Assembly (NCBI RefSeq): GCF_003003055.1
Contig: NZ_PVTV01000012.1
Span: 62,001 to 126,000 of the forward strand
Direction of reading: 5' to 3'
Length of the DNA: 64,000 nucleotides
Source of the DNA: Jezberella montanilacus
Lineage (GTDB): Bacteria > Pseudomonadota > Gammaproteobacteria > Burkholderiales > Burkholderiaceae_B
The notes under the pieces are model-generated. The model worked only from the letters and a program-made list of their open reading frames with translations, was not told the DNA's origin and ran no database searches. Position numbers and translations under genes: made by a program. Below are positions 49,175 to 63,356 of the stretch, piece by piece (within the stretch, counting starts at the first letter, position 1; each line of letters opens with the position of its first letter).

Positions 49175-50215
49175 TCAAGCTTTGAACGACTTATTCCAAT
49201 AATCCAAAACGACTGATTTCTGTGTAATGAGTTTTTTGGCATCATAGGCAAAGACTCGCTTCATTTCGTCATCCGTAAAACTGACGCGCGCACGCAAATC
49301 AGCTGGAAGGTCGGCATTACGAACCGTTGGCGCATAGCCCATCGCCCTAGCGAACTCGACTTGCCCCTTAGGATCTAGCATTGCGTTAAGAAATTTAGCG
49401 GCACCTTCCTTGTTTCGCGAACTCTTAGGCACAGCACCCTCAAAAGTCACCGCCACCGCACCCTCTTGCGGCACGACAAAACCAAGCGGCAAACCGTCGT
49501 TCTGCCATTGCAGAGCGCGGGCCTTCCACATGCAACTGATCCAGATCTCACCCGACTTGAAGGCAGCGGCAACCGCTTCGTTTGAGGGAAACACCTTGGG
49601 ATCGTTTTGTTTTAGTTTCGATAAAAACTGAGTCCCCGCATCGTAGCTACCCATATTTCCGCCATTAGCCAAACCCGCAAAAAGCGTGCTTGCCGCAAAG
49701 AGGATGTCGGAAAAACCTACCCGACTCCTGTACTTTGGATCTAGTGCATCGTTAAAAGATTGGGGCGGCGTTGAAATTTTTTCTTTGTTGTAGACCAGCA
49801 CCATGGCACTAAAAATATGGGGGATCGAATATGCAGTTTTAAATTGATCATGGACGTGCACGAGATTAGGGATCGTTTTGTCACTAAGCGCTTCGAGCGT
49901 GCCGGCTTGTGAAGCGTCGTACATATCCAGATCTTGTAACAGGGCAACATCCATCGAACCCCGACGCGCATTCACCTCTGTTCGCAACTTCGTCAATCGC
50001 GCTTCGGCGCTGCCGGTATCAAACACAACAGGCACACCAGAAACAGGATTAACGATTTTCAGCAATAGGTTCTGGTAGTCGCCCCCCCACGTTCCGACCA
50101 CGACATCAGTGCCTTCAGCCATTGCCTTTTTTGCTAGCAGTGGTGCAGTTGGCAGCAATAAGAGCCCCGAAGCAGTTTTCAGTAATTGACGTCTGGTCGT
50201 ATTTGGCGATGACAT
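49175..50215 (-). CDS. PotD-type ABC transporter substrate-binding protein
   Basis: Periplasmic receptor of the spermidine/putrescine-like class (extracellular solute-binding family 1). The 346-residue protein has a twin-arginine-type signal (TTRRQLLKTASGLLLLPTAP, cleavage near AMAEG) and mature segments VVGTWGGDYQNLLLKI and LRTEVNARRGSMDVALLQDLD. The start is ATG 50215. It lies at the far end of a run with two amidohydrolases, a CobW GTPase, two permeases and an ATPase, so its ligand is probably a compound cleaved by the hydrolases. A peptide-like, opine-like or polyamine conjugate is possible. Confidence 0.88.
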   Translation of the reverse strand: MSSPNTTRRQLLKTASGLLLLPTAPLLAKKAMAEGTDVVVGTWGGDYQNLLLKIVNPVSGVPVVFDTGSAEARLTKLRTEVNARRGSMDVALLQDLDMYDASQAGTLEALSDKTIPNLVHVHDQFKTAYSIPHIFSAMVLVYNKEKISTPPQSFNDALDPKYRSRVGFSDILFAASTLFAGLANGGNMGSYDAGTQFLSKLKQNDPKVFPSNEAVAAAFKSGEIWISCMWKARALQWQNDGLPLGFVVPQEGAVAVTFEGAVPKSSRNKEGAAKFLNAMLDPKGQVEFARAMGYAPTVRNADLPADLRARVSFTDDEMKRVFAYDAKKLITQKSVVLDYWNKSFKA

Positions 50216-50235
50216 AAGCGATCCTGATTGCGTAG

Positions 50236-51285
50236 TTAATGAGAAACAACGTTGAACAACGGCTGTGGGGCATTGGTCGGCATTAAGGCATTTGAGAGAC
50301 AGATAATCCCATCCGCCAACTCATTCATAATACTAATAGCATCCAGATCCATTGTCATCACCACAATAACATCAGCCTCAGTCAGAAATTTCGTCAATCG
50401 TCTTGGCATTGAATAGGTCGTGCCAACGCTTTGTATGAGTATCGGCTCGGCGCAATCAGAGACATGCACAAGCAACTTTGTGCGCAAAAGTCTATCCCCA
50501 CAGAATCCCGCTAAGTCGTCCAACCATTGCGCGACATCTTCCCAATAAAGCGCTCGCGTCGCGATCCCTTTCAAGACATGAATTCTGGGATGGGCTGCGG
50601 TCGTTGAGAGGTCTCTCATCGTCAGTTGCTGTTGCCATTCATCTTGATTTTGCTCCATTTCGTAGCACTGAAATGCTTTCTCGACCAGGATGCGTCGGTC
50701 GGTGTCGGCAACGATCTGCGCCAAAGGATTGATCGAGCTCACATAGTTAATTCGACGGGGTAGCAAGGTTTCATCAACACAATCAAGCTTGGTGAAAACA
50801 ATCCGCTGTGCAGCGCTGAGCTGCGCGACGGCCTCGTCAAAACGTTCACTGTTCAGTTCACCAACTTGGGCATCAAAGGTGCTCACGACCAACACGCGCA
50901 GACGTCTGACGACCAAGGCAGGATCCGCTAACGAAGCAAGAATCGGGCTGGGCTTGGACACCCCGCTAGTTTCAAGCACAATCCTGCGCAAAGGCGGCGA
51001 ACCTGAGGGACGTGGCGCCTCCAACAATTGCTCGACGGTGTAAACCAGACTGCTACGCAAAGAACAACAAACACACCCGTTTGATAATAGGGTGAACGGC
51101 ACCTCAGTCGTTTCTTCCTGAACCAACACACCGTCAATACCGATTTCGCCAGCTTCATTAATAATGACAGCCGTGTCGTTCAAATCATTCTGGGCCAGAA
51201 AATCAACAACCAGAGACGTTTTGCCACTACCCAGAAATCCGCAAAGCAGAATAAGCTCAACGCCCTGATGGTCGGTCACTGTCAT
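50236..51285 (-). CDS. CobW/COG0523-family GTPase (putative metallochaperone)
   Basis: A 349-residue G3E GTPase of the COG0523 family, members of which move zinc, cobalt or iron to target enzymes. The P-loop is GFLGSGKTS (16-24), the metal-binding CxCC motif is CVCC (71-74) in SNGCVCCSLR, and TKLD occupies the usual NKxD position. A long C-terminal domain follows. ATG 51285 is preferred over TTG at 51306; it overlaps the stop of the amidohydrolase gene at 51257 by 29 bases. Placement next to two metal-dependent amidohydrolases suggests it loads their metal. Confidence 0.88.
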   Translation of the reverse strand: MTVTDHQGVELILLCGFLGSGKTSLVVDFLAQNDLNDTAVIINEAGEIGIDGVLVQEETTEVPFTLLSNGCVCCSLRSSLVYTVEQLLEAPRPSGSPPLRRIVLETSGVSKPSPILASLADPALVVRRLRVLVVSTFDAQVGELNSERFDEAVAQLSAAQRIVFTKLDCVDETLLPRRINYVSSINPLAQIVADTDRRILVEKAFQCYEMEQNQDEWQQQLTMRDLSTTAAHPRIHVLKGIATRALYWEDVAQWLDDLAGFCGDRLLRTKLLVHVSDCAEPILIQSVGTTYSMPRRLTKFLTEADVIVVMTMDLDAISIMNELADGIICLSNALMPTNAPQPLFNVVSH

Positions 51286-52870
51286 CACCCTCCCAGCTTG
51301 AATCAACTAACGCACGCACATCTGCGAGCAATTCTTCAACGTCATAAACAACGCCTGCACGGATCGTGTATTGCAGGGACTTTTTCCATTCGGTCGCAGC
51401 AGTAGCGTCATTTAGTCGAAGCGCTCCAGTGCCATACATCTGTTTAAAGTCCTCGAGAGGATTGCACTGATGCACCAACAGATCCGCTCGTTTCCCCAAA
51501 TCAATTGATCCCGTATCTTCATCGATACCTAAGAGCGCAGCACCTTGAGACGTCGCAGCACGTAATACCTCCAGAGGATTGAATCCTGCTTCTTGCAGTA
51601 GCTCGAGTTCACGAATTAGCCCAAAGCCGTAAATCTGATAGATAAAGCCAGAGTCACTTCCGGTACACACTCGGCCGCCCCGGTTTTTATAGTCATTAAC
51701 AAACTGCATCCAAAGCGCATAGTTTTGTTTCCACTCAATTTCGTTCTGCGTGCTCCAGCGATACCAATAAGCGCCATGCCCACCTCGTTGCGGCTGGAAA
51801 TACTTCCAGATCGACTTCCAGGTGTAGGCGCCATGCCAATCCGCACGACGAGCTCGCATCAAATCGCGATTGGCGTCGTAAATATTAAAAGTCGGCACAA
51901 ACGTATGATCCAGCTCTAAAAACTGATCAAGCACGTCATTCCATTTTTGACTACCAGGCGCTGCAGCCTGCATAAACATCTGTCCAGCCACAGAAAAGCG
52001 CATGTACTCATCGCCGTAGTTGTAATCGGCCGGGAAGTTTTGCACGACTCGTTTTTCAAACAACGCCTCTGGAATACCGTAATAATGTTCAGAACTGGTC
52101 AACCCCCATTTCGCAGAGCTTAATGCGTTCACACGCGTCACGCTCATTTGTGCGTGATGGCAACCGCTCTTGAGACCAAGTCGATTGGCCTCATCCAAAG
52201 CAGCCTGCATGATCAAAGGCGGTGCGCCAAAGAATTTAACGCCATCAGCACCCCGTGCTTTAATGCGCCGCACCCACTCGCGCGCCTGCTCCGGCGTGAA
52301 GATCGTTTTAATTCTGTCGTTAACAGCCGGGAAGTAGCTGTGACAAATCATTCTGGGTGCCGCTATCTCGTTGCGCTCAGCCGCCTCACGTTGCTGCAAC
52401 ATGTATCCCAAACCATTGATACTGCCCATCTCACGCACGGTTGTCACGCCATGTGCCAGCCACAGCTTGTAGACATAGTCTGCTGGTGGCACCGACCCAC
52501 TCATGCCATGATATGGCGTACCCACGTGACCATGGCAATCAATTAATCCCGGCGTAACGAATTTGCCGTGACAATCGATTTCGTGATCACCCGCTGCTGG
52601 TCGTCGCCCAGGTTTAATGGCAACCTGCGGGGTGCCCACATTAACCAGACCGGTGATGCGTCCAGCTTCAACAACAAGATCCACTGGTCCCCAAGGTGGT
52701 GCGCCGGTACCATCGATAATGGTCGCGCCACGCAAAATAAGGCGTTTGAACGGCCCCGCGCCACGATCGCGCTGGGTAGCCGCCGTTGCCGGAAACATTC
52801 CCTTAGGCTCGTTAATTAAACGGCTTTCTTCGCCGCAATCGAAATCCTTAATGATGCTGGTATCAATCAT
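51257..52870 (-). CDS. Amidohydrolase-family protein 1 (537 aa)
   Basis: A metal-dependent hydrolase of the amidohydrolase superfamily, larger than its neighbour. It has the metal pair DCHGHVG (HxH, about residue 117-119), later histidines in SGCHHAQMSV and the acidic GSDSGF near residue 410. The substrate is unknown; imidazolonepropionase- or Xaa-Pro dipeptidase-type enzymes are the nearest classes. ATG 52870 follows AGAGG, two bases after the stop of the upstream gene; an alternative GTG is at 52876. It shares an operon with a CobW GTPase and a PotABCD-like importer. Confidence 0.85.
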   Translation of the reverse strand: MIDTSIIKDFDCGEESRLINEPKGMFPATAATQRDRGAGPFKRLILRGATIIDGTGAPPWGPVDLVVEAGRITGLVNVGTPQVAIKPGRRPAAGDHEIDCHGKFVTPGLIDCHGHVGTPYHGMSGSVPPADYVYKLWLAHGVTTVREMGSINGLGYMLQQREAAERNEIAAPRMICHSYFPAVNDRIKTIFTPEQAREWVRRIKARGADGVKFFGAPPLIMQAALDEANRLGLKSGCHHAQMSVTRVNALSSAKWGLTSSEHYYGIPEALFEKRVVQNFPADYNYGDEYMRFSVAGQMFMQAAAPGSQKWNDVLDQFLELDHTFVPTFNIYDANRDLMRARRADWHGAYTWKSIWKYFQPQRGGHGAYWYRWSTQNEIEWKQNYALWMQFVNDYKNRGGRVCTGSDSGFIYQIYGFGLIRELELLQEAGFNPLEVLRAATSQGAALLGIDEDTGSIDLGKRADLLVHQCNPLEDFKQMYGTGALRLNDATAATEWKKSLQYTIRAGVVYDVEELLADVRALVDSSWEGDDSDRPSGR

Positions 52871-52872
52871 GC

Positions 52873-54111
52873 TCACCTCTGCGCGTAAATTTTCCCTGCT
52901 TTCATGACGAGGTCAATGTGATCGCCTTGTCCAAGCAAGCAAGTAATATCTTCGTAAGGATTGCCATCGACAATCAATATGTCGGCAAAAGCGCCTTCTT
53001 GAAGCCGACCCAATTTTCCAACTTGGTTGAGTACTTCTGCACCAATCACTGTTGCACTTTGAATCACCTCAAAATTGCTCATTATCTGTGTGCGGATTTT
53101 GAATTCATCACTTTGCAACCTTTGGGTCGCGCCGAGCAAGTCACTTCCGTAAGCAATCTTGACGCCTGCTTTTTTAAGTAGCGCCAGGGCAGTCAACCCG
53201 GCCTGACGAACCACTTCTATCTTGGCGACACTATCCACCGGAAAACCCAAGGCCGCGCCTTCTTTCGCTAATGCCTCATAAGTCACCAGCGTTGGCACTG
53301 CATAAGCACCTTTCTGAGCCATCAATTGCGCAGTCGACTCATCAATCAGGTTTCCGTGCTCAATCGTGCGAACGCCTAAATTAACAGCCCGTGCAATCGC
53401 CTCAGCGGTGTACGCATGCGCCATCACATACGTTTGCCGACCATTTGCCTCGGCCACAATAGCGGATATTTCATCATCCGAATAACCCCAGGCACCAATG
53501 GGATCTGTTGGCGATGCGACACCACCCGAAGCCATGATTTTGATATGATCCGCACCCATTTGAAACTCTTCGCGCACGGCTTTACGAACTGCATCAACAC
53601 CATCAGCGACACGGCCAATGTCACCTGCGCGAAAACAGCAGCCACAAAAGCTCATGGGCTTTAGATGGTCTGACCGAGGCCGGGGGTCTCCGTGGCCGCC
53701 CGTCTGGCTTAACGCACGGCCGGCGGTAAATAGGCGCGGCCCATCTATTGTCCCCTCTTCAATTGCACACTTCAGCCCCCACCCTGCACCGCCGGCATCT
53801 CTGACGGTTGTGAAACCACGGCGCAACATCGCCTCCATAATCGGCACTGCACGCATCATCACCAGTGCATCGGGTAAGACCCCTTGCGTGCTGAGATTCA
53901 ACTGCGTTGCCATGACATGCACGTGACAATCGATTAAACCCGGCATCAGCGTCTTACCCTTGACATCGATCACTTGGTCAACCTGCGTCGGGATGGGCGT
54001 ATCTGACACCTTTGCAATCCGATCATCGACGACAAGCACGTCGTGCTGCTTCAAAAGGTTTGGCACAAGCGGATCAAGCAGTGCACAGTTCTTAAACAAA
54101 ACCGAGGCCAT
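52873..54111 (-). CDS. Amidohydrolase-family protein 2 (Xaa-Pro dipeptidase-like)
   Basis: A 412-residue amidohydrolase-superfamily enzyme with an N-terminal beta domain, the metal pair DCHVHV (about 62-67), the family segment TTVRDAGGAGWGLK, later metal residues in MAHAYTAEAI and EHGN, and the acidic GSDLLG. Sequence style matches COG1228 imidazolonepropionase-like enzymes, which include dipeptidases that cut prolyl-type and aryl amides. ATG 54111 lies behind GGGAG; an alternative GTG is at 54114. It is paired with the 537-residue amidohydrolase, starting two bases after it, which suggests sequential hydrolysis. Confidence 0.86.
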   Translation of the reverse strand: MASVLFKNCALLDPLVPNLLKQHDVLVVDDRIAKVSDTPIPTQVDQVIDVKGKTLMPGLIDCHVHVMATQLNLSTQGVLPDALVMMRAVPIMEAMLRRGFTTVRDAGGAGWGLKCAIEEGTIDGPRLFTAGRALSQTGGHGDPRPRSDHLKPMSFCGCCFRAGDIGRVADGVDAVRKAVREEFQMGADHIKIMASGGVASPTDPIGAWGYSDDEISAIVAEANGRQTYVMAHAYTAEAIARAVNLGVRTIEHGNLIDESTAQLMAQKGAYAVPTLVTYEALAKEGAALGFPVDSVAKIEVVRQAGLTALALLKKAGVKIAYGSDLLGATQRLQSDEFKIRTQIMSNFEVIQSATVIGAEVLNQVGKLGRLQEGAFADILIVDGNPYEDITCLLGQGDHIDLVMKAGKIYAQR

Positions 54112-54135
54112 CACAACTCCCTTACAAGTTATAAA

Positions 54136-55017
54136 TCACGAAACCATCGTCTTCTGATAACGGCGATGTATCAGCCAATTTGCACACAAAGAAACCAACA
54201 AACTAGTCATCAGCAAAATCATTGCCATTGCCGACCCCATTGGCCAATTCGATGCCCGAGAAATCTGCGCATAAATACTTGGCGCCATCATGGTGATGCC
54301 GCTCCCACCCAGCAAAACAGGCGTCGCATAAGCATTCATGCATAAAATAAATACCAACATCGTGCCAGCAGCAACGCCTGGTGCGATCAGGGGAAATACG
54401 ATTCGGCGAAGTGTTGTGAATGCGCTTGCACCAAGATTTTGAGCTGCCTCTTCGAGCGAAAAGTCGATTCCTTCCAAGACGCTCTGCAGTGTCAAAATCA
54501 TGTAGGGCAATACAACCGCAGTTGTGCCAATGACAACCGCCACGGGCGTATAAAGCAACTTGAGTGGGTGGTCAATTATGCCTAACCAGTGCAACAGTGC
54601 ATTGACTGCCCCCGCGTTACCCAGCACCACCATCCATCCAGCAGCTCTGACGACATTGCCGACCATCAGCGGGAAAATCAACAGAATAATTAAAAAGCTT
54701 TTGTAATTCGTTTTTGTTTTTGCCAAAAAATAAGCAACTGGAAATCCAAGTATCAAAGACAACACCGTGCAAATGGCAGCCACTTGCAGGGTGCTCACGA
54801 ACACTTGACGGTAATAAGGATCCGTAAAAAAACTGATGTAGTTACTCAGGCTCAATGCAGCCTTCATCACTTGACCTGGCACGAACTGGTTCAAACTATA
54901 TCTTGCCACCAAGAGCATCGGCACAACAATAATCAGCAAGACAACAAGCGAGGCTGGGAACGCCAAGCTGGGTCCTGATAATTTTTTTACTTGTTGGGGT
55001 GCGGGAGATAAGTTCAT
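54136..55017 (-). CDS. ABC transporter permease, PotB-like
   Basis: Inner-membrane permease of a polyamine-type importer. The 293-residue protein has six predicted transmembrane helices (for example VVLLIIVVPMLLVARY near the start) and the EAA loop EAAQNLGASAFTTLRRIVFPL (about 195-215). It precedes the amidohydrolase genes by 24 bases and follows the ATPase gene by 15 bases, all leftward. The partner permease is at 56091-56891. Confidence 0.9.
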   Translation of the reverse strand: MNLSPAPQQVKKLSGPSLAFPASLVVLLIIVVPMLLVARYSLNQFVPGQVMKAALSLSNYISFFTDPYYRQVFVSTLQVAAICTVLSLILGFPVAYFLAKTKTNYKSFLIILLIFPLMVGNVVRAAGWMVVLGNAGAVNALLHWLGIIDHPLKLLYTPVAVVIGTTAVVLPYMILTLQSVLEGIDFSLEEAAQNLGASAFTTLRRIVFPLIAPGVAAGTMLVFILCMNAYATPVLLGGSGITMMAPSIYAQISRASNWPMGSAMAMILLMTSLLVSLCANWLIHRRYQKTMVS

Positions 55018-55032
55018 GCTCAGTTGCTGAAC

Positions 55033-56088
55033 CTATGAATCACAAAAGACTGCGTTGTCGTCTGCGCGCCAATTAACAAACACCTCAGCGCCCGACTGAA
55101 AGACCTGGGTATCTATCCCTGCGGCATTGCTCAGTTGGCAGCGGATTAATTCATTTCCGGCGTCCATTAAGGTAACTTCAATTTGAGGACCTAAATAAGC
55201 AACGCTAGTCACTTTGACCTGAATGCTGTTGTCTAACTGCGGTTGGCTAGACAACAACATCCGTTCGGGACGCACACCCACGCACTGAGTGTCGGCTCTC
55301 AAGGCAGCTACGGACAACACAGTGCCGGTCGCTGTCAAAAAAGCGTGGTCAGCAATTGGTCGGCCGCGAAAGAAATTCATCTTTCCCAGGAAATCTGCAA
55401 CAAGCAAATTGACTGGTTGTTCATAGACGTCGCTTGGCTTGCCAACCTGTTGCACGGTTCCCTTATGCATGATGACCATTCGATCGGACATAGCCAAAGC
55501 TTCTTCTTGATCATGCGTGACAAAAACGGTAGTCAAGCCTAAGCTTTGTTGCAACTCACGTATCTCTTCTCTCACCGCCTGTCTTAGCCTGGCATCGAGA
55601 TTAGATAACGGTTCATCAAGCAGAAAAACTTGAGGTTGAATCGCCAGTGCACGTGCAATGGCAACTCGCTGTTGTTGGCCACCTGACAGTTGTCTGGGAT
55701 ATCGATCTTTAAAACCAGTCATCCGGACCATATCCAGAACAGTCGCGACCCTTTGCTTACGCGCTGCCGGCGGGACTTTGTGCATCTCGAGACCAAATGC
55801 AATATTTTCTGCAACGGTCATGTGAGGAAATAACGCGTACCGCTGAAACACCATACCCGTGTTTCTTTTATGCGGTCGGGTCTGCGTTACGTCTTCTCCA
55901 TCAATCAGTATTTTTCCGTGAGTCGGTGCAACAAAGCCCGCAATCATTCTTAAAGTCGTGGTTTTACCGCAACCGCTCGGGCCAAGGAAGGTGACAAGCT
56001 CACCATCCTCAATTTCAAGAGAGAAATCGTCGACGGCCACAGAAGAGTCAAATTGCTTTCTTAGATGAACAAGTGAGACCTTTGCCAT
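55033..56088 (-). CDS. ABC transporter ATP-binding protein, PotA-like
   Basis: ATPase of the importer. The 351-residue protein has Walker A GPSGCGKTT (about 36-44), the Q-loop, signature [15 protein letters not shown], Walker B FLLDEPLSNLDARL and a C-terminal TOBE domain (from about 250) typical of PotA/FbpC-type ATPases. ATG 56088 is taken; a TTG at 56094 is possible. It lies between two permease genes, three bases from the stop of the upstream one. Confidence 0.93.
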   Translation of the reverse strand: MAKVSLVHLRKQFDSSVAVDDFSLEIEDGELVTFLGPSGCGKTTTLRMIAGFVAPTHGKILIDGEDVTQTRPHKRNTGMVFQRYALFPHMTVAENIAFGLEMHKVPPAARKQRVATVLDMVRMTGFKDRYPRQLSGGQQQRVAIARALAIQPQVFLLDEPLSNLDARLRQAVREEIRELQQSLGLTTVFVTHDQEEALAMSDRMVIMHKGTVQQVGKPSDVYEQPVNLLVADFLGKMNFFRGRPIADHAFLTATGTVLSVAALRADTQCVGVRPERMLLSSQPQLDNSIQVKVTSVAYLGPQIEVTLMDAGNELIRCQLSNAAGIDTQVFQSGAEVFVNWRADDNAVFCDS

Positions 56089-56090
56089 GC

Positions 56091-56891
56091 TCAAACCACC
56101 TGACTAAGTTTAACGAACCGATCAGTGATCAACATGATGGCTCCTAATAAAGCAATTTGTACCGTCGCCACGGCGGCAATCGTCGGATCAAGATTGAACT
56201 CAAGATACTGCATCACTGCGATCGGTAAAGTGGTTCTGCCAGGCGACACGAGCGACAAGGAAACCTCTAGGTTTTCAAATGACACGATAAAACTGAATAA
56301 CATCGCAGCGACCATTGCGGGGCGCAACATAGGTATGGTTACGCGCCAGAAAACGCTGACCGCGTTTGCGCCCAGATTGGAGGCCGCCTCCTCAATCGAT
56401 GGATCCAAACCATGCAAACTGGCAGATACCATTCTGACAGTCCAAGGAATGGTTAGGCAAACGTGCGCAAGAACCAGACTAGCCGTTGTGCCAACGATAT
56501 CTTTATCAACGAGATTCTCTGCCTGAATATAAAAAATATAGATGGCGATCCCGGCAACAATGCCTGGCATCAATAAAGGCGACAACAATAAAGTGTTAAC
56601 GACGCTTTTTCCTTTGAAGGGATTTCGAATGATCCCGATAGCCGCTGCAACGCCCACTAATACGCCAACTACCGCGGAAAATATTGCCACCTGCACGCTG
56701 AAAACAAAACCATTGACGAAGGATTTGTTCGCCCACGCATTGACGTACCAGGCGAGCGAATAACCAGATGGGGGGAAATAAAGAATCGCGTCTTTAAAAA
56801 AACTAAGCCAAACAACAAAAAATAGCGGGCACAACATCACGCCATAAATGACTACAACGAATAGCCTCAACATAACCTTGCTCAATTGCAT
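56091..56891 (-). CDS. ABC transporter permease, PotC-like
   Basis: Second permease of the importer (266 residues). It has hydrophobic helices (VVVIYGVMLCPLFFVVWLSFF near the start) and an EAA loop EAASNLGANAVSVFWRVTIPML (about 175-196). It is the first gene of the unit seen in the direction of transcription after the upstream operon, with an 80-base gap in front. It probably pairs with the PotB-like permease at 54136. Confidence 0.9.
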   Translation of the reverse strand: MQLSKVMLRLFVVVIYGVMLCPLFFVVWLSFFKDAILYFPPSGYSLAWYVNAWANKSFVNGFVFSVQVAIFSAVVGVLVGVAAAIGIIRNPFKGKSVVNTLLLSPLLMPGIVAGIAIYIFYIQAENLVDKDIVGTTASLVLAHVCLTIPWTVRMVSASLHGLDPSIEEAASNLGANAVSVFWRVTIPMLRPAMVAAMLFSFIVSFENLEVSLSLVSPGRTTLPIAVMQYLEFNLDPTIAAVATVQIALLGAIMLITDRFVKLSQVV

Positions 56892-56973
56892 ACTCGCAGT
56901 ATTCTCATCCTGATTATCAATCGGCTAATGAATTTCTATCATAAGCCATGTTGAATCAGCGTAACTGCCCGCA

Positions 56974-57366
56974 TCACTCTGGTTTTGAAGCTATTTCAAA
57001 TCGCAGCAACACCTGTCCATCGTGTTCAAAGTAGTGCGCCACCACTCGGTCACCAATCACAACACCATTCCTGGTGTGCCCCATGAGCTTAAATCCCTCA
57101 TCAAGCGAAACGATAGCAAGAGCATAAGGTACAAGCGCCTTAAATGATTCCGACGGTGCGCGTCCCACTTGAGTGACGCTGTACACCTTGCCGTTGCCCT
57201 TCGATTCGTACCAACGGAGCGTCTCAGTCCCACAAAACTGACAGGCGTATCGCGCCAGGGTTTGTGCCTTTGCACAAACTTCACAACGCTGAAACATCAA
57301 CTGTCGTTTACTCAAGCCATCCACAAAGGGCTGGGCTAACGGCGACGAAGACGGTTTCTCAAACAT
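56974..57366 (-). CDS. DUF35 Zn-ribbon/OB-fold protein
   Basis: A 130-residue protein with an N-terminal zinc ribbon (CEVC...CQFC, about residues 28-45) and an OB fold (YSVTQVGRAP to LRFEIASKP). This Zn-OB type pairs with thiolase-fold proteins: in archaeal HMG-CoA synthesis and in the Ltp2-DUF35 aldolases of steroid side-chain breakdown. The gene lies 3 bases after the thiolase-fold gene, so the two probably form one complex. Confidence 0.9.
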   Translation of the reverse strand: MFEKPSSSPLAQPFVDGLSKRQLMFQRCEVCAKAQTLARYACQFCGTETLRWYESKGNGKVYSVTQVGRAPSESFKALVPYALAIVSLDEGFKLMGHTRNGVVIGDRVVAHYFEHDGQVLLRFEIASKPE

Positions 57367-57369
57367 GAC

Positions 57370-58512
57370 TCAGCCCTCTCGCGCCAAAATCAAACTCACG
57401 TGCGACGACATCACGCCACCATCAGCATGGATAAACGCATGCTTAGGTGACTTAACTTGCCTCGTGCCAGCCAGCCCATTGAATTGTCGCCATGCTTCGG
57501 CCGTATGTGCCAACCCGCCGGCCACCCCGCAATGCCCAAAAGATAACAACCCACCATGCGTATTCAACGGCTGATTACCATGTTGTGAGAAATCCCCCGC
57601 GCGTAATCTCTTAACGGCACCAGCCCGTGGTGCAAAACCTATCTCCTCTAACAACATCACCAAGGTGATAGTGAAAGAATCGTAAATACCCAGATAATCC
57701 ATGTCAGCAGCCGAGAGGTTTGCTTGTTCAAACGCTTGCTTTGCCGCATGCGCAGCGCCTGTATTCAGCACATCAACCATGGCAGTCAGATGTTGATGAA
57801 AATGCCCCTGTCCTGCACCCGCAATTCGAACAGGAACGCCAGATCTAGGCTCGGCCGAAACGACCAACGCCATCGCCCCATCAGATATGGGACAACAGTC
57901 CATCAATCTCAATGGCGCGGCAATGGTTTTTGACGCCAGCACATCTGCCACTGTTATCGGATCGCGCAAATGTGCATCAGGATGCCTTGCGGCGTTCCCC
58001 CGCATCAAGACCGCAAACTCTGCCAAGTCCTCTGAGGTAACACCGGTCTCGTGCAGATACCGCGAGGCCATCAACCCATAATAGGCTGGCACTGAAGCAC
58101 CGTTCGGCACTTCAAAATCCGCATCCCCCACTTGTGCCAAGGTTTGTATTGAGCTGTCGCGTGTCTGCCCAGTCAAACGGTTTTCGCCTGCGACAACCAA
58201 CACGTGACGACAGCGGCCACTCACCACAAGCTCTCTTGCAAGCATCAACATGGCCGCGCCCGTCGCACCACCCACCTGCATGCCGTGACAATAATTCGGC
58301 CGTAAAGAAAACTTTTCGCAGAACAAAGTCGACAACATAAGGTGCGGCAGCGTCGTCGCGTAGCCACATAAGACACCGTCGATTTCTTGTCTACTTAACT
58401 GCGCAGCAGTCAAGGCAGCACTCGCCGCACGCGCCATCAAATCTATCGAACTGAATCCTTCTAACCGACCAAACGGGGTATTACCAACACCGGCAATATA
58501 AGCATGACTCAT
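57370..58512 (-). CDS. Thiolase-fold protein lacking the nucleophilic Cys (possible Ltp2-type aldolase)
   Basis: A 380-residue thiolase-superfamily protein of the SCP-x/lipid-transfer branch. At the position of the active-site cysteine the sequence reads VGGATGAAMLMLA (81-86 GGATGA), so the nucleophile is absent. The C-terminal loop is FGHCGVAGGLAHTAEAWRQF, resembling Ltp2-like proteins, which cleave a C-C bond by retro-aldol chemistry with a DUF35 partner. ATG 58512 is used; a TTG at 58518 is possible. It precedes the DUF35 gene by 3 bases. Function as an aldolase or CoA-ester binding enzyme is inferred; classical thiolysis is unlikely. Confidence 0.82.
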   Translation of the reverse strand: MSHAYIAGVGNTPFGRLEGFSSIDLMARAASAALTAAQLSRQEIDGVLCGYATTLPHLMLSTLFCEKFSLRPNYCHGMQVGGATGAAMLMLARELVVSGRCRHVLVVAGENRLTGQTRDSSIQTLAQVGDADFEVPNGASVPAYYGLMASRYLHETGVTSEDLAEFAVLMRGNAARHPDAHLRDPITVADVLASKTIAAPLRLMDCCPISDGAMALVVSAEPRSGVPVRIAGAGQGHFHQHLTAMVDVLNTGAAHAAKQAFEQANLSAADMDYLGIYDSFTITLVMLLEEIGFAPRAGAVKRLRAGDFSQHGNQPLNTHGGLLSFGHCGVAGGLAHTAEAWRQFNGLAGTRQVKSPKHAFIHADGGVMSSHVSLILAREG

Positions 58513-58514
58513 GC

Positions 58515-59477
58515 TCAATTCAGCTTGATGTGATTGGCTCGCGCAAGCTTATCCCACTTGTCACGCTCACTAATCAAAAATGTTTGAAACGCTTGCGACG
58601 TATTACCCACGGGCTCTGCGCCCTGCTCGTAAAAAAGCCTCTCAATCTCGGGAGTCTTTAGTGCAGCAACGGCTGCCCCATTAAGGGCATCGATCGTTAC
58701 CTGAGGAGTGCCTGCAGGTGCCATCAAACCAAACCAGGCCGATACTTCGTATCCAGGGACACCCGCCTCTGCCATGGTTGGGATGTCCGGCGCACCGGGC
58801 CACCGCTTCGCTGTCGTCACCGCTAATGCCTTGACCTTACCTGACTTAATGTAAGTCATGGAAGAAGGCAAATTATCAAATCCTATGGGTATCTGTCCTC
58901 CCATCAGATCGATCAGCATGGGCGAACCCCCTTTATACGGGACGTGCGTTAAGTCAATGCCCGTCATCAGCTTCAGCAGTTCACCGCTCATATGCGGAGA
59001 GCCTCCGTGACTGGTCGAACCAAAATTGATTTTGCCCGGATTTTGTTTTGCCATAACAATCAAATCCTTAACCGTCTTTGCTGCAAAGTCCGGATTTGCC
59101 ATCAAAACATTAGGCGTATTCGCAACCAGCGTAATCGCTGCAAAATCTTTCACTGCGTCATAGGGAGGTGGTTCTTGCAGTGCTGGGATGATTCCATGCG
59201 ACGCAATGCTCACAAACACCAGCGTTAATCCGTCGGGTGCTGACTTAGCGACCTGCTGCGCACCAATCACACCACCTGCACCGGCCTTATTTTCAATCAC
59301 TACTGTCTGACCTAAGCGTTCACTCATTTTGGGCGCAATCGCACGCGCAAGCAAATCCGTCGTACCTCCAGCGGGATAGGGCACAATCAACCGGATCGGC
59401 TTGTCGCTGGTTTGCGCCTGCGCGGGATTGATCAAGCTACTCGCAATCGACAACAAAATAGCAAAAGCTGCTCGCAT
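58515..59477 (-). CDS. Bug/TctC-family receptor, catabolic operon
   Basis: A 320-residue periplasmic receptor with signal peptide (AAFAILLSIASSLINPAQAQ, about 3-22) and the family opening KPIRLIVPYPAGGTTDLLARAIA, NKAGAGGVIGAQQVA. No TctAB genes are adjacent. It sits between the thiolase-fold gene (3 bases) and the PRISE-like reductase gene (3 bases), so it should bind the substrate or a related acid of that pathway. Confidence 0.9.
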   Translation of the reverse strand: MRAAFAILLSIASSLINPAQAQTSDKPIRLIVPYPAGGTTDLLARAIAPKMSERLGQTVVIENKAGAGGVIGAQQVAKSAPDGLTLVFVSIASHGIIPALQEPPPYDAVKDFAAITLVANTPNVLMANPDFAAKTVKDLIVMAKQNPGKINFGSTSHGGSPHMSGELLKLMTGIDLTHVPYKGGSPMLIDLMGGQIPIGFDNLPSSMTYIKSGKVKALAVTTAKRWPGAPDIPTMAEAGVPGYEVSAWFGLMAPAGTPQVTIDALNGAAVAALKTPEIERLFYEQGAEPVGNTSQAFQTFLISERDKWDKLARANHIKLN

Positions 59478-59480
59478 GAT

Positions 59481-60563
59481 TTACCTCGGCAAAAGCCGTT
59501 GTGATTGCATTTTCTCTAACCAAAATCCAAGCGAATCTTCAGTATCAATACACCCCGCAAAACCATGCTGACGCAGTTTTACGCCACTCAACACCGCATT
59601 AGCTGGATGCGCTAAACCATGCCCGAGGGTCCGATCCGTGAACTCCCAGGAGCTATTAGCCAATTGCTCGAGCGTCAGCGGTTTTAGTCCATGCTTAGCA
59701 ACGATCCTTGACCACACGGCCTCGTATTTAGGCATCTCATCTTTTAAACACAAAGGCTCGTGTCCGCCAAGCGGCATACCGAAGCGTTCAGCGACACTGG
59801 GCCAAAGGTCCCGCCACACCAAACCGTCGCCATTGACCACGTTATAGGTTTCGTTCGCAGCGATTTCATGAACCGCCGCAAAATGTGCGGCTTGCGCAAT
59901 CAAACGACTATCGCTTGCGCCGTTCACGTAATCACCCCCACCCGGGAAGGTCAACGGTAAGCCTTGTTCCCGCAAAATCGCCGCAAACGCACCGATGGCA
60001 ATCATCACATTCATCGGACTTGCCACGGCGTAGCCCAAAACCACCTGAGGCCGCAATATCGTGAAAGTCCAAGCAGCTTGTGCTTGTCTGGCGCGAATAA
60101 AATCCTCTTGCAACCAGTAAAAATTTTGATGATTGTGGCGAGGCCATCTTTCTTTACAGGGAACAGGGGCCGGCTCGACATGACCGCCATACGCCTTCGT
60201 ACCTTGTAAGAACGAAACATGCCGCAAGCCTTTGGCAACGGGCTCAATCGCATCGAGCAAATTGCGCAGCATCGCTTCATTAATCGACATCTGTCTTGGG
60301 TCGCGCCAGCCTGACACCAAATCAGGCAATTCAAACAAGGCTGCGTACAAAATATGCGTCACATGCGAAAGTTCGGTGGCTGCTTTTTGACACGCAACCG
60401 GATCGGTCAAATCAACACGAAGCTGCTTCACACCTTCGGGCAAATCCAGCGGTCGGCGCGCTAAGGCAAGAACCTCAAAGTCTGGTTGGGCAGAAAAATG
60501 GTCAACCGCGGCTGCACCAACAACACCCCCTGCGCCTGCTATTAATATTCTATGTTTTTTCAC
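59481..60563 (-). CDS. PRISE-type NAD(P)-dependent enone reductase-like SDR
   Basis: A 360-residue short-chain dehydrogenase-like protein with the nucleotide loop GAGGVVG (10-16), the PRISE motifs LQGTKAY (119-125, Lys123) and NFYWLQED (147-154, Tyr149 in the Tyr position of NFYYxxED). PRISE enzymes (progesterone 5-beta-reductase / iridoid synthase-like) reduce C=C of enones. Start GTG 60563 has GGGGA five bases ahead and is preferred over TTG at 60587. It lies between AtuA C-terminal and Bug genes. A bacterial role in reducing an unsaturated ketone or acid is inferred. Confidence 0.85.
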   Translation of the reverse strand: MKKHRILIAGAGGVVGAAAVDHFSAQPDFEVLALARRPLDLPEGVKQLRVDLTDPVACQKAATELSHVTHILYAALFELPDLVSGWRDPRQMSINEAMLRNLLDAIEPVAKGLRHVSFLQGTKAYGGHVEPAPVPCKERWPRHNHQNFYWLQEDFIRARQAQAAWTFTILRPQVVLGYAVASPMNVMIAIGAFAAILREQGLPLTFPGGGDYVNGASDSRLIAQAAHFAAVHEIAANETYNVVNGDGLVWRDLWPSVAERFGMPLGGHEPLCLKDEMPKYEAVWSRIVAKHGLKPLTLEQLANSSWEFTDRTLGHGLAHPANAVLSGVKLRQHGFAGCIDTEDSLGFWLEKMQSQRLLPR

Positions 60564-60579
60564 AGCATCCCCGAATCGG

Positions 60580-60936
60580 TCATGCAAGCAAATGCTGGCC
60601 TTGCAGTTTGGTCTTTAAGTGCTCAGGTACTTCTATTTCAAAGCCAAGGATGGCGGCTGACAAAGCTTTGCCATAATTATCCAGACAAAGGCTACGCGAT
60701 ACACCACCGCCCAACGCACCCTGGCAAACAAAGTTCAGTGCATCGATATTATCGGCCTCATAACGAGTAACGACCCCTTTGATCGCACCTGCATAAAACG
60801 CTTTTAGGCGATCAGCCGTCAACTGTTCTTTCAGCAAAGGATAAAACTCTGGTTGGTAGGCAAAGACCGCAATGTTTGACGTATCACCCTTGTCGCCCGA
60901 TCTCGCGTGCGCAACATGTTGAAGTTTGACTTTCAT
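60580..60936 (-). CDS. AtuA C-terminal-like small subunit
   Basis: A 118-residue protein matching the C-terminal domain found fused in Pseudomonas AtuA (acyclic terpene utilisation), encoded here as a separate gene. It opens MKVKLQHVAHARSGDKGDTSNIAVF and contains NFVCQGALGGGVSRSLCLDNYGKAL. ATG 60936 is taken; the longer reading to 61002 overlaps the AtuA gene without conserved residues. It begins 5 bases after the AtuA stop, so both products may form one enzyme. Activity is unknown. Confidence 0.85.
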   Translation of the reverse strand: MKVKLQHVAHARSGDKGDTSNIAVFAYQPEFYPLLKEQLTADRLKAFYAGAIKGVVTRYEADNIDALNFVCQGALGGGVSRSLCLDNYGKALSAAILGFEIEVPEHLKTKLQGQHLLA

Positions 60937-60941
60937 TTTGT

Positions 60942-62297
60942 TCAGCTCTCGAAATAACGAACAGTCGGGGCAAGCTGAGTGCGATCCACAAGCCCAGACC
61001 ACACACCAATCACTTCACGGGTTCTATCCTGATGCGGCACGCGCTTGCCCGTGTGGGCAATCCCAGAGACCGCCATACCATCGATCTCCCGACCAACCTT
61101 AGCAGCTTCCTCTCGTGTCTTAGTTCGTGCCGCAACTCGAACTGCTATCTCATACGGCTCTGGCGCGCTGCCTGGTGTCGCGTCCCCATGAATCGCGTTT
61201 AAGCCTAAGTAGTCGATCCGAACATCCTCTGCGTCAAGCTTGACGATCTTGAAACGTTCTTCAAGAATCTTTTTAGCCAACTGTGCCCGTCTTAACGCAC
61301 CGGGCCCCGCATAAAAAAACATATCCTCACCGATGAAGCCTTCCGTGCATCCCATTGACACCTTGAAGGTCGGTGTACGGGGCTTGCCTCCAATGTTTGA
61401 GACGCGAACGCGATCAGGGCCCACCACCTCGATCTTTGCAGTAGTGAAGTCCACGACCACATCAGGGGTCAAATAATTGGCTGGATCATGCACTTCGTAA
61501 AGCATTTGCTCTTTAACCGTCTGCAAAGTAATCGCACCGCCCGTGCCCGCAACTTTACTCAGCACAGTTGAACCATCTGGCGAAACCTCTGCAATCGGGA
61601 AACCGAAGTTCCACGGCTCAGGCACATCCTTGAAGCCGGGATCTGAAAAATATCCACCAGTCACCTGAGCACCGCATTCAAGCAGGTGGCCAATGCCAGT
61701 CCCTTGTCCAAGCTTCACATGGTCGAGGGGATCCCATCCAAACTCATACATCATCGGGGCCAGGAAAATCGACGGGTCAGCAACGCGGCCTGTGATGACG
61801 ATCTGCGCACCACCCTTTAACGCTTCGACAATAGGCTCTGCACCCAGGTAGGCTTCCGCCGAAATCAATGTTGATTTCAAGGTCGACGTGGGTTTGCCGT
61901 TTTCTAGAATCGTATCGGTCAGCTCCAAGACGCGCTCTGTAATCAAGCTGCCATTAACCGACGCAACCTTGACGCCCGTGAAGCCAAATTCCTGCAGCCA
62001 GTAAACAACTCGCTCAGCCGCAGCGTCAGGATTGATCCAGCCTTGATTGGTAATGATCTTGGTCCCGCGTTTCATACACGCTGGCAGGACTGCACGCATC
62101 CTATCGTCAAGATAGGTGTCGTAGCCGGGGAAACTTGGATCGCGGCGCGCCCGCACTTGTGCAGCCGAAACCGTCGCCTCAGCCATGGTTTCAAAGCACA
62201 AGTAATCAAGATCGCCTTTCTCTGCATTCAAGGCTGCAGGTTCGACGCGGTCACCCCACCAGGCCGCGCCTGAGCCAATTCGGATGCTGCTCTTCAT
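60942..62297 (-). CDS. AtuA-family protein (acyclic terpene utilisation type)
   Basis: A 451-residue protein of the AtuA family (formerly DUF1446), named after a gene needed for growth of Pseudomonas on citronellol and geraniol. Typical segments are IRIGSGAAWWGDRVEPA at the start, LCFETMAEATV, GAQIVITGRVADPSIFLAPMMYEFGW and GTGIGHLLECGAQVTGGYF. The biochemical step is not known. It starts 6 bases after the cyclase-family gene, and its C-terminal domain is encoded by the next gene. Confidence 0.88.
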   Translation of the reverse strand: MKSSIRIGSGAAWWGDRVEPAALNAEKGDLDYLCFETMAEATVSAAQVRARRDPSFPGYDTYLDDRMRAVLPACMKRGTKIITNQGWINPDAAAERVVYWLQEFGFTGVKVASVNGSLITERVLELTDTILENGKPTSTLKSTLISAEAYLGAEPIVEALKGGAQIVITGRVADPSIFLAPMMYEFGWDPLDHVKLGQGTGIGHLLECGAQVTGGYFSDPGFKDVPEPWNFGFPIAEVSPDGSTVLSKVAGTGGAITLQTVKEQMLYEVHDPANYLTPDVVVDFTTAKIEVVGPDRVRVSNIGGKPRTPTFKVSMGCTEGFIGEDMFFYAGPGALRRAQLAKKILEERFKIVKLDAEDVRIDYLGLNAIHGDATPGSAPEPYEIAVRVAARTKTREEAAKVGREIDGMAVSGIAHTGKRVPHQDRTREVIGVWSGLVDRTQLAPTVRYFES

Positions 62298-62303
62298 GAG
62301 CGC

Positions 62304-63356
62304 TTAGACGGTTGCGACCGCTGACGACGGTGATCCCACGGCACCGGGCAAACGCAATGGCGGCGCGGTCAACAAGAAACGATTACGGCCATGCGCTCTT
62401 AGCCAGTTAGCCAGCTCAGTCAGATAGAACATCTCACCGAGATGAATACCTTGCTTGAACAAACAATGCTCATGCAATGGCAGGATAGCGCAGCAGCCAA
62501 TGTGGCTTGTTGCTGGATGCGCTTCGACTGCGTAATTGTCTGCAATCAATGCAACGAGACCGCTATCCGTGATCCACTTTAATAACTTCTGATCACGGCC
62601 ATCGAGCGCTGCATAACTGTTTTCAAGTTTATGTCCGTCAGGATTACCCTTCATGTCAATCAAGGCTTGAGCAAAACCGGTATGCAGGCAAACCATGTCG
62701 CCCTTTTCAATCACGACCTTGTCCTTCTCAAGGATACGCATCATGTCGTCGTAACCAACATTTGTGCGCGCGTCACCCAAGTTGGCGCGCAAATCGATCA
62801 TGACGCCGCGACCCTGTACGCAAGTCTCTGCCATGTTCTGGATACCTAGCGCTTTTGCGTAGGAGGTGCTGACTTGACTACCTGCACCAGCATAACCAGC
62901 ATCTTCTGCTTTTTCTGGTCCAACAACATCGGTACCTGCGCGGTAACCGTTGTAATAAACCGCTTCGGGGATACCATCGCCATTCGCGTCAAACATCGAG
63001 CCGACGTGAGCCAAGCTATCCCACTGCGTTGAATATTGCAAATGCATCACAACCAGGTCATCACTGACTACGTCGGTTTGATCTTTGTTGAAGTCAAACA
63101 ATTTGACGTTCATGTTCGGGCGACCTTCACGCAGCGTCGGACGAAGAACTGGCGGATAACGACGGGGGTTCAACACATTGCCACCAGGCAAATCAAGGGG
63201 CAATGAAAGCATGAATGCTTTGCCTACTTTAACCTCCGCGACGCCCTGCATGACTTTTTCCGGCGTCAAGAGATTCATCTTGCCGCGCTGGTCATCGTCG
63301 CCAAAATCACCCCAGCTCGAACCTTCAGGGCGATTAGCCCAACGTTTTGTTGCCAT
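62304..63356 (-). CDS. Cyclase-family hydrolase (kynurenine formamidase-like)
   Basis: A 350-residue protein of the cyclase superfamily, which contains metal-dependent amide or lactone hydrolases. It has the metal and active-site region VVMHLQYSTQWDSLAHVGSMFDA (H-x-x-x-x-x-D-x-x-x-H pattern) and a later KGDMVCLHTGFAQAL and HEHCLFKQGIHLGEM. A lactone or cyclic amide ring opening is plausible. It has a GGAGA ribosome site before ATG 63356 and appears to begin the operon that runs to 56974. Confidence 0.85.
   Translation of the reverse strand: MATKRWANRPEGSSWGDFGDDDQRGKMNLLTPEKVMQGVAEVKVGKAFMLSLPLDLPGGNVLNPRRYPPVLRPTLREGRPNMNVKLFDFNKDQTDVVSDDLVVMHLQYSTQWDSLAHVGSMFDANGDGIPEAVYYNGYRAGTDVVGPEKAEDAGYAGAGSQVSTSYAKALGIQNMAETCVQGRGVMIDLRANLGDARTNVGYDDMMRILEKDKVVIEKGDMVCLHTGFAQALIDMKGNPDGHKLENSYAALDGRDQKLLKWITDSGLVALIADNYAVEAHPATSHIGCCAILPLHEHCLFKQGIHLGEMFYLTELANWLRAHGRNRFLLTAPPLRLPGAVGSPSSAVATV

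Follow-up and report, generated by a model that had tools for sequence, protein, structure and literature searches.

AtuA-family proteins are named after the Atu pathway, in which the AtuA of Pseudomonas and Thauera is credited with a step where a tertiary 3-hydroxy acid is proposed to lose acetate (PMC4847356). A review credits the acetate-lyase step of the same pathway to LiuE, not AtuA (PMC4097962). A second described system is citramalate lyase, CmlA/CmlB (structures 9erq and 9evf), of which subunit A is named an AtuA family protein. Two other groups bear on what follows: the steroid side-chain aldolases Ltp2-ChsH2 and Sal-Shy, in which a thiolase-fold protein is paired with a DUF35 protein, and the PRISE reductases, whose plant members are described as acting in cardenolide and iridoid pathways. 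Members of all these families stand together in a presumptive seven-gene operon of Jezberella montanilacus, at 56974-63356 on the minus strand of the window (the whole stretch of 64,000 nucleotides that was analysed, contig NZ_PVTV01000012.1, positions 62,001 to 126,000). The cluster is real and conserved, and most likely represents a catabolic operon that draws on known families and encodes two unusual C-C lyases.

The seven open reading frames (ORFs) run head to tail, and each scores above its curated Pfam cut-off, given here after the score. CYC (62304..63356), a long-form hydrolase of the cyclase family (PF04199, 43 bits, cut-off 23.1), is first. It is followed by AtuA (60942..62297; PF07287, 477 bits, 22.8), the predicted large subunit of a citramalate-lyase-like C-C lyase, and AtuS (60580..60936; AtuA_ferredoxin, PF23544, about 106-107 bits, 27), the small subunit. 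Then come the PRISE reductase (59481..60563; PF22917, 57 bits, 27), BUG, a periplasmic receptor of the tripartite tricarboxylate (TctC) family (58515..59477; PF03401, 247 bits, 27), THIO, a thiolase-fold protein and predicted DUF35-dependent retro-aldolase (57370..58512; Thiolase_C_1, 153 bits, 28), and DUF35, its OB-fold/zinc-ribbon partner (56974..57366; OB_ChsH2_C, PF01796, 46 bits, 27.1). With the likeliest starts (ATG 60936 for AtuS, GTG 60563 for PRISE with TTG 60587 as the other candidate, ATG 58512 for THIO with TTG 58518 likewise) and start and stop codons in frame, the intergenic gaps are 6, 5, 16, 3, 2 and 3 bases; the 0-20 base spacing of the seven-gene set given in the preliminary description of this DNA thus narrows to 2 to 16. 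Against seven relatives, divergence is ~1.7 to 5.6-fold higher at third than at first codon positions (0.50-0.70 versus 0.10-0.41), which points to protein-level selection on all seven genes. AtuA is the most conserved member (88-89% identity to the same seven relatives) and DUF35 the least (47-58%). The operon is not a product of chance, as is argued by this codon-position divergence and by the recurrence of the same seven-gene order in eight of 80 related loci.

Those loci are the best 80 from a scan of genome contigs with AtuA, in which 261 stretches matched, 236 of them relatives. Partners were counted on either strand at E 1e-10 with identity thresholds applied (at least 50% for THIO), and the counts are lower bounds, as 33 of these loci measure under 19 kb. 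AtuS is present in 79, showing that the 'AtuA in two genes' of the preliminary description, though right as to the two genes, is no split or broken gene but the normal two-subunit form. BUG is present in 57, THIO in 37, an acyl-CoA ligase in 37, DUF35 in 36, CYC in 30, PRISE in 27 and an IclR regulator in 22; where THIO is held (37 loci), DUF35 and the ligase each accompany it in 36, CYC and PRISE each in 23, and IclR in 22. The window's order is kept in L061, L064-L069 and L110 (the first gene of L065, counted here, is cut by the contig end). In all eight an ADP-forming acyl-CoA ligase comes next, and in three (L061, L066, L110) an IclR regulator follows CYC; neither addition was visible from the window sequence alone. 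That the operon is private to the Jezberella montanilacus genome is ruled out by these eight loci.

In records of Rhizobacter and Ideonella (Burkholderiales) and Skermanella (Alphaproteobacteria) the gene order is rearranged, the Skermanella locus (L130) having these genes split into two divergent groups, with PRISE present twice, and such rearrangement argues for functional coupling. The named isolates that come nearest in the scan (from which the window's own species was possibly left out) include Sheuella and Zwartia; Sheuella amnicola NBD-18 (Alcaligenaceae, L057) has six of the seven genes, BUG being the exception, together with the ligase and IclR. Four genomes assembled from metagenomes and titled Bordetella parapertussis (L059, L069, L103, L104) carry the whole operon or parts of it, with AtuA 80-89% identical to that of the window. 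Their label looks doubtful, the AtuA being like that of Sheuella and other environmental Burkholderiales.

For function, the strongest lead is that the two subunits of one complex are matched by AtuA and AtuS models made separately (AtuA from 38 sequences, mean predicted local distance difference test score, pLDDT, 75; AtuS from 15 sequences, mean pLDDT 88). In a Foldseek comparison with the PDB, the best match of the AtuA model is 9evf chain A (E 5.1e-19, template modelling (TM) score 0.58, root-mean-square deviation (rmsd) 11.6, 16% identity; next match E 1.8e-2) and that of the AtuS model is 9evf chain B (E 7.5e-5, TM 0.63/0.70, rmsd 3.6, 23% identity; next match E 2.8e-2). The entry is titled 'Citramalate lyase - ADP - pyruvate complex', and for each subunit the matching chain is the only PDB match below E 0.001. 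CmlA/CmlB, like AtuA and AtuS, consists of two subunits, and a Gly-Arg-x-x-Asp-Pro stretch is common to AtuA and the solved subunit A. Judged by the models, AtuA and AtuS appear to form a two-subunit C-C lyase resembling citramalate lyase, the substrate presumably being a hydroxy-acid. Unlike CmlA/CmlB, they sit in an operon with a hydrolase, a reductase and a thiolase-fold protein.

DUF1446 is the old name of the AtuA family. In enterobacteria a DUF1446 gene lies downstream of that for methylaspartate ammonia-lyase, and in 2015 the citramalate-cleaving enzyme there had not been found (PMC4682846); a list for Prevotella has methylaspartate ammonia-lyase beside two AtuA-family loci (PMC10434189). 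The enterobacterial DUF1446 gene may be that of the solved citramalate lyase. These neighbourhoods, together with the fold match of both subunits, would suit an AtuA/AtuS that is a plain citramalate (or 3-hydroxy-3-methylglutarate) lyase, in an operon which degrades C5/C6 branched dicarboxylates or lactones and whose other enzymes feed it the acid. A short pathway for a tricarboxylate-like acid would also fit ten of the 80 loci, where Bug and LysR are the sole scored partners of AtuA-AtuS. Sequence similarity to the solved enzyme is only short, the operon has neither mesaconase nor ammonia-lyase, and a short acid leaves CYC, PRISE and the aldolase unexplained; the plain-lyase explanation is considered unlikely. 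In two other loci (L172:145-5130 and L169:15348-19110) a short-chain dehydrogenase/reductase (SDR) and an acyl-CoA dehydrogenase come after AtuA-AtuS, L172 also having an APH-type kinase. This gene set is reminiscent of 4-hydroxyacid/levulinate degradation.

The AtuA of the Atu pathway and that of the window presumably belong to the same Pfam family. With the best structural matches being the two citramalate lyase chains, the name AtuA alone is no pointer to terpenes, and the isoprenoid-like substrate of the preliminary description, which rested on that name, is not supported: the only solved relative found for both subunits is a citramalate lyase. Thauera AtuA is a 615-aa protein encoded in a region with geranyl-CoA carboxylase (PMC4847356), whereas the window has two genes and no carboxylase. 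A Pfam scan of the 14 same-strand genes of 49175-63356 found neither geranyl-CoA carboxylase AtuC/AtuF nor the hydratase AtuE, and among the seven genes of the operon there is no carboxylase, enoyl-CoA hydratase or acyl-CoA dehydrogenase.

This genome has its Atu-like cluster elsewhere (L035, G000:C4:138000-157000), where a fused AtuA (599 aa) lies beside biotin carboxylase, carboxyltransferase, acyl-CoA dehydrogenase, Bug and a CaiB-type CoA-transferase. A third AtuA/AtuS pair (L036, G000:C1:560000-579500) is accompanied by Bug, a 2-hydroxyacid dehydrogenase, two enoyl-CoA hydratases, an AMP ligase, an acyl-CoA dehydrogenase and a 3-hydroxyacyl-CoA dehydrogenase. A terpene pathway as the default reading of the seven genes is rejected, the carboxylase context adjoining the C4 copy of AtuA.

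A variant Atu or isoprenoid-acid pathway could still be envisaged, with AtuA acting as lyase on a 3-hydroxy-3-alkylglutaryl-type intermediate, PRISE as reductase on a terpenoid enone, and THIO/DUF35 trimming the side chain. In its favour, a plant PRISE has been assayed with 8-oxogeranial, citral and progesterone (PMC6172241), and the PDB relatives of THIO and DUF35 include the steroid side-chain aldolases. Against it stand the missing carboxylase, hydratase and dehydrogenase, the crediting of the acetate-lyase step to LiuE, and the identity of the operon's AtuA, 63-89% to ten chosen relatives versus 40% and 33% to the genome's two other AtuA copies. This isoprenoid reading is conceivable, but it is not favoured and is considered unlikely.

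The second of the two candidate lyases is THIO with DUF35. In an alignment of 15 sequences, the window's included (residues numbered from TTG 58518), G84, Y279-D-S-F and H329 are invariant. G84 stands at the position of the thiolase nucleophile, aligned with the Cys of 7yvy and 7pxp. With Gly in place of that Cys in 15 of 15, a true thiolase is rejected, and 'thiolase', the word used in the preliminary description, is probably wrong as a statement of chemistry; the C-C cleaving pair of thiolase-fold protein and DUF35 proposed there is supported, as are the PRISE-like reductase and the single catabolic operon. Sal likewise has Gly at the nucleophile position and is incapable of thiolysis; the catalytic Tyr is Y294 in Ltp2 and Tyr302 in Sal, and the acid Tyr344 and Cys304, respectively (PMC12329534). 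Y279 of THIO aligns with Y294 of Ltp2, the base of the YDxF/Y motif that Ltp2, Sal and THIO have in common. DUF35 reads Cys-x2-Cys-x10-Cys-x2-Cys in translation and has 9myr chain B and 6ok1 chain B as relatives; a C4 zinc motif (in the wording of PMC12329534) is also present in ChsH2. Where they differ is in the remainder of the active site, THIO having YDSF and His329 versus YDHF and Tyr344 in Ltp2 and YDCY and Gln352 in Sal, and 'YDSF' occurs 0 times in the text of PMC12329534. THIO with DUF35 is predicted from the alignments to be a retro-aldolase with an active-site pattern unlike those of the two characterised DUF35-partnered aldolases. Shy, the partner of Sal, bears a MaoC hydratase domain (PMC11321319), whereas the window operon has no hydratase, so the beta-hydroxy acid for THIO may be supplied by CYC or PRISE.

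The PRISE protein matches 5mlh over its full length (E 6.6e-43) and aligns along its length with plant progesterone 5-beta-reductases, though it is bacterial. K131 and Y157 (numbered from TTG 60587) are invariant in 13 of 13 aligned sequences, the window's included, and align with the plant Lys and Tyr. By the spacing in the alignment, K131 is taken to be the equivalent of plant K147. In the plant enzyme the two residues are K147 and Y179, and K147 mutants are inactive (PMC6172241). With catalytic Lys and Tyr kept, the window protein is predicted to be a reductase.

For CYC the nearest solved protein is 5ibz, an 'uncharacterized protein' (E 3.7e-37). The canonical metal motif of PF04199 is HxGTHxDxPxH. 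CYC does not have it, reading STQWDSLAH in the metal-motif region versus STQWDALSH in 5ibz. Bug receptors, like those of TRAP transporters, usually bind carboxylates, and one match to the TctA permease is present elsewhere in the genome (C3:5813-7069). Among relatives the type of transport varies between Bug, Liv-type ABC, Dpp-type ABC and TRAP; in L125 (13026-16014) the place between CYC and PRISE is taken by TRAP genes, which Pfam identifies as DctP and DctM and which flank a 187-aa ORF.

Taken together, the genes would make up a conserved catabolic operon for a branched and/or cyclic carboxylic acid, which would be opened at a ring or ester, reduced, activated with CoA and cut by two C-C lyases, a reading held with about even confidence. 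Bug would bind the carboxylate in the periplasm for import, CYC would open a ring or ester, and PRISE, using NAD(P)H, would reduce a carbonyl or a conjugated double bond. The CoA thioester would be made by an acyl-CoA ligase, whose gene is in the operon in relatives and would be elsewhere in this genome. THIO and DUF35 would then cleave the beta-hydroxyacyl-CoA by retro-aldol cleavage, not thiolysis, and AtuA with AtuS would break another C-C bond, this one in a hydroxy-acid, to give acetate or an activated acetyl unit, with ATP or ADP probably involved; the order of the steps is likewise a proposal. Put forward more tentatively is that one pathway, spread across Burkholderiales and some Alphaproteobacteria, makes both C-C cuts in a single branched or alicyclic carboxylic acid, one by a nucleotide-using AtuA-AtuS lyase of the citramalate-lyase type and the other by an aldolase that depends on DUF35 and has an active site of a third kind (YDSF and His). 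The open-access literature searched gives no account of the seven-gene set, as the preliminary description had supposed, nor of 9evf.

Several observations weigh against this catabolic reading. The AtuA model is moderate (pLDDT 75) and its superposition on 9evf chain A loose (TM 0.58, rmsd 11.6). By sequence, AtuA matches 9erq/9evf only over a short stretch (residues 142-219, E 0.0022; by profile 149-186, E 1.4e-4), and AtuS matched no solved PDB chain. At the positions of His296 and Tyr344 in Ltp2, and of Cys304 and Gln352 in Sal, THIO reads Ser281 and His329 (alignments with 6ok1 and 9myr), so the retro-aldol acid of neither known aldolase is present; the best PDB match of THIO, 4u4e, which also reads YDSF plus His, is called only 'Thiolase'. 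Liv-type and Dpp-type ABC transporters beside some relatives indicate no single substrate class. The window operon has neither ligase nor IclR, and as the best ligase relative in this genome is 33% identical with a TAA stop inside the match, CoA activation here needs another enzyme.

Searches that set out from other genes weigh on both sides: the partners found beside THIO support the reading, and the absence of PRISE there, like that of close THIO relatives around other PRISE genes, tells against it. THIO matched at E 1e-60 in 53 of 399 genomes of the order. From 66 listed places outside this genome 20 regions were taken (the 17 best and three lower), and with one 3.1-kb contig dropped 19 were mapped. 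They hold DUF35 in 19 (in two not directly adjoining THIO on its strand), the ligase in 15, IclR in 11, AtuA in nine, CYC in seven and PRISE in 0. Three of them (L174, L177, L180) are the same DNA as AtuA loci L108, L098 and L103; without these (n=16) the counts are DUF35 16, ligase 12, IclR nine, AtuA six, CYC four and PRISE 0. On these counts the tightest core is THIO, DUF35, ligase and IclR, with AtuA, CYC and PRISE the looser partners.

Around 18 other PRISE relatives (L037-L054, chosen among listed places and mapped by tblastn) no THIO above 35% identity was found; two of the regions have THIO matches of 25% and 35%, one has DUF35 at 31%, and L042 has AtuA-AtuS at 37%/41%. In L039 (G102:C1:1578000-1597000) a PRISE relative (47%) stands with a ligase and an IclR regulator that are 63% and 50% identical to those of the operon's relatives, with neither THIO nor AtuA; the same genome also holds CYC-THIO-DUF35-AtuA-AtuS elsewhere (L183). 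PRISE at E 1e-30 was found in 0 of the 12 same-family genomes listed. Two genomes of the order, G055 and G140, have four PRISE relatives each, 33-39% identical to that of the window. Of ten other neighbours scanned with Pfam, one is an acyl-CoA dehydrogenase, one a CoA-transferase and six look unrelated; the other two are ORFs with no match.

Such loose association could mean that the genes are neighbours serving separate pathways: the AtuA pair, linked to Bug, and the set of THIO, DUF35 and ligase would each have a substrate of their own and share an operon in some lineages. AtuA-AtuS occurs with no THIO (at least 50%) in 43 of the 80 loci (some of the 80 being cut short), and THIO with no AtuA in ten of the 19 THIO regions. 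Co-location in rearranged orders across Beta- and Alphaproteobacteria speaks against two pathways. So does co-occurrence in the same 399 genomes: PRISE relatives are present in 53, and THIO and PRISE are shared by 36 genomes versus 7 expected (by genus, 14 versus 3.2), figures that are supporting only, as the lineages are not independent, the cut-offs differed and distant relatives were counted. The explanation by two pathways is very unlikely.

The end of gyrB (named by reading) is 143 bases upstream of the operon on the same strand. Downstream, after an 82-base gap, a polyamine-type ABC transporter (two permeases and an ATPase with TOBE_2), two amidohydrolases, a CobW-family GTPase and a binding protein run head to tail on the minus strand (49175-56891), in what looks like a separate uptake-and-hydrolysis operon. 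Only its ABC ATPase clustered with genes of the operon's relatives; for this reason, and because of the gap, the transporter and amidohydrolases are kept out of the pathway. Scans for promoters (14 versus 13.4 by chance) and terminators (18 versus 17.5) were at chance level, and composition analysis gave no clear mark of recent transfer.

The evidence behind the terpene name of AtuA-family proteins is thin. Since both subunits are linked to a solved citramalate lyase that holds ADP and pyruvate, the prediction is that the AtuA family are two-subunit hydroxy-acid lyases. THIO, for its part, has an active-site pattern that differs from those of the two characterised DUF35-partnered aldolases. 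The operon provides a conserved setting in which the substrate may be found, including in a named strain, Sheuella amnicola NBD-18.

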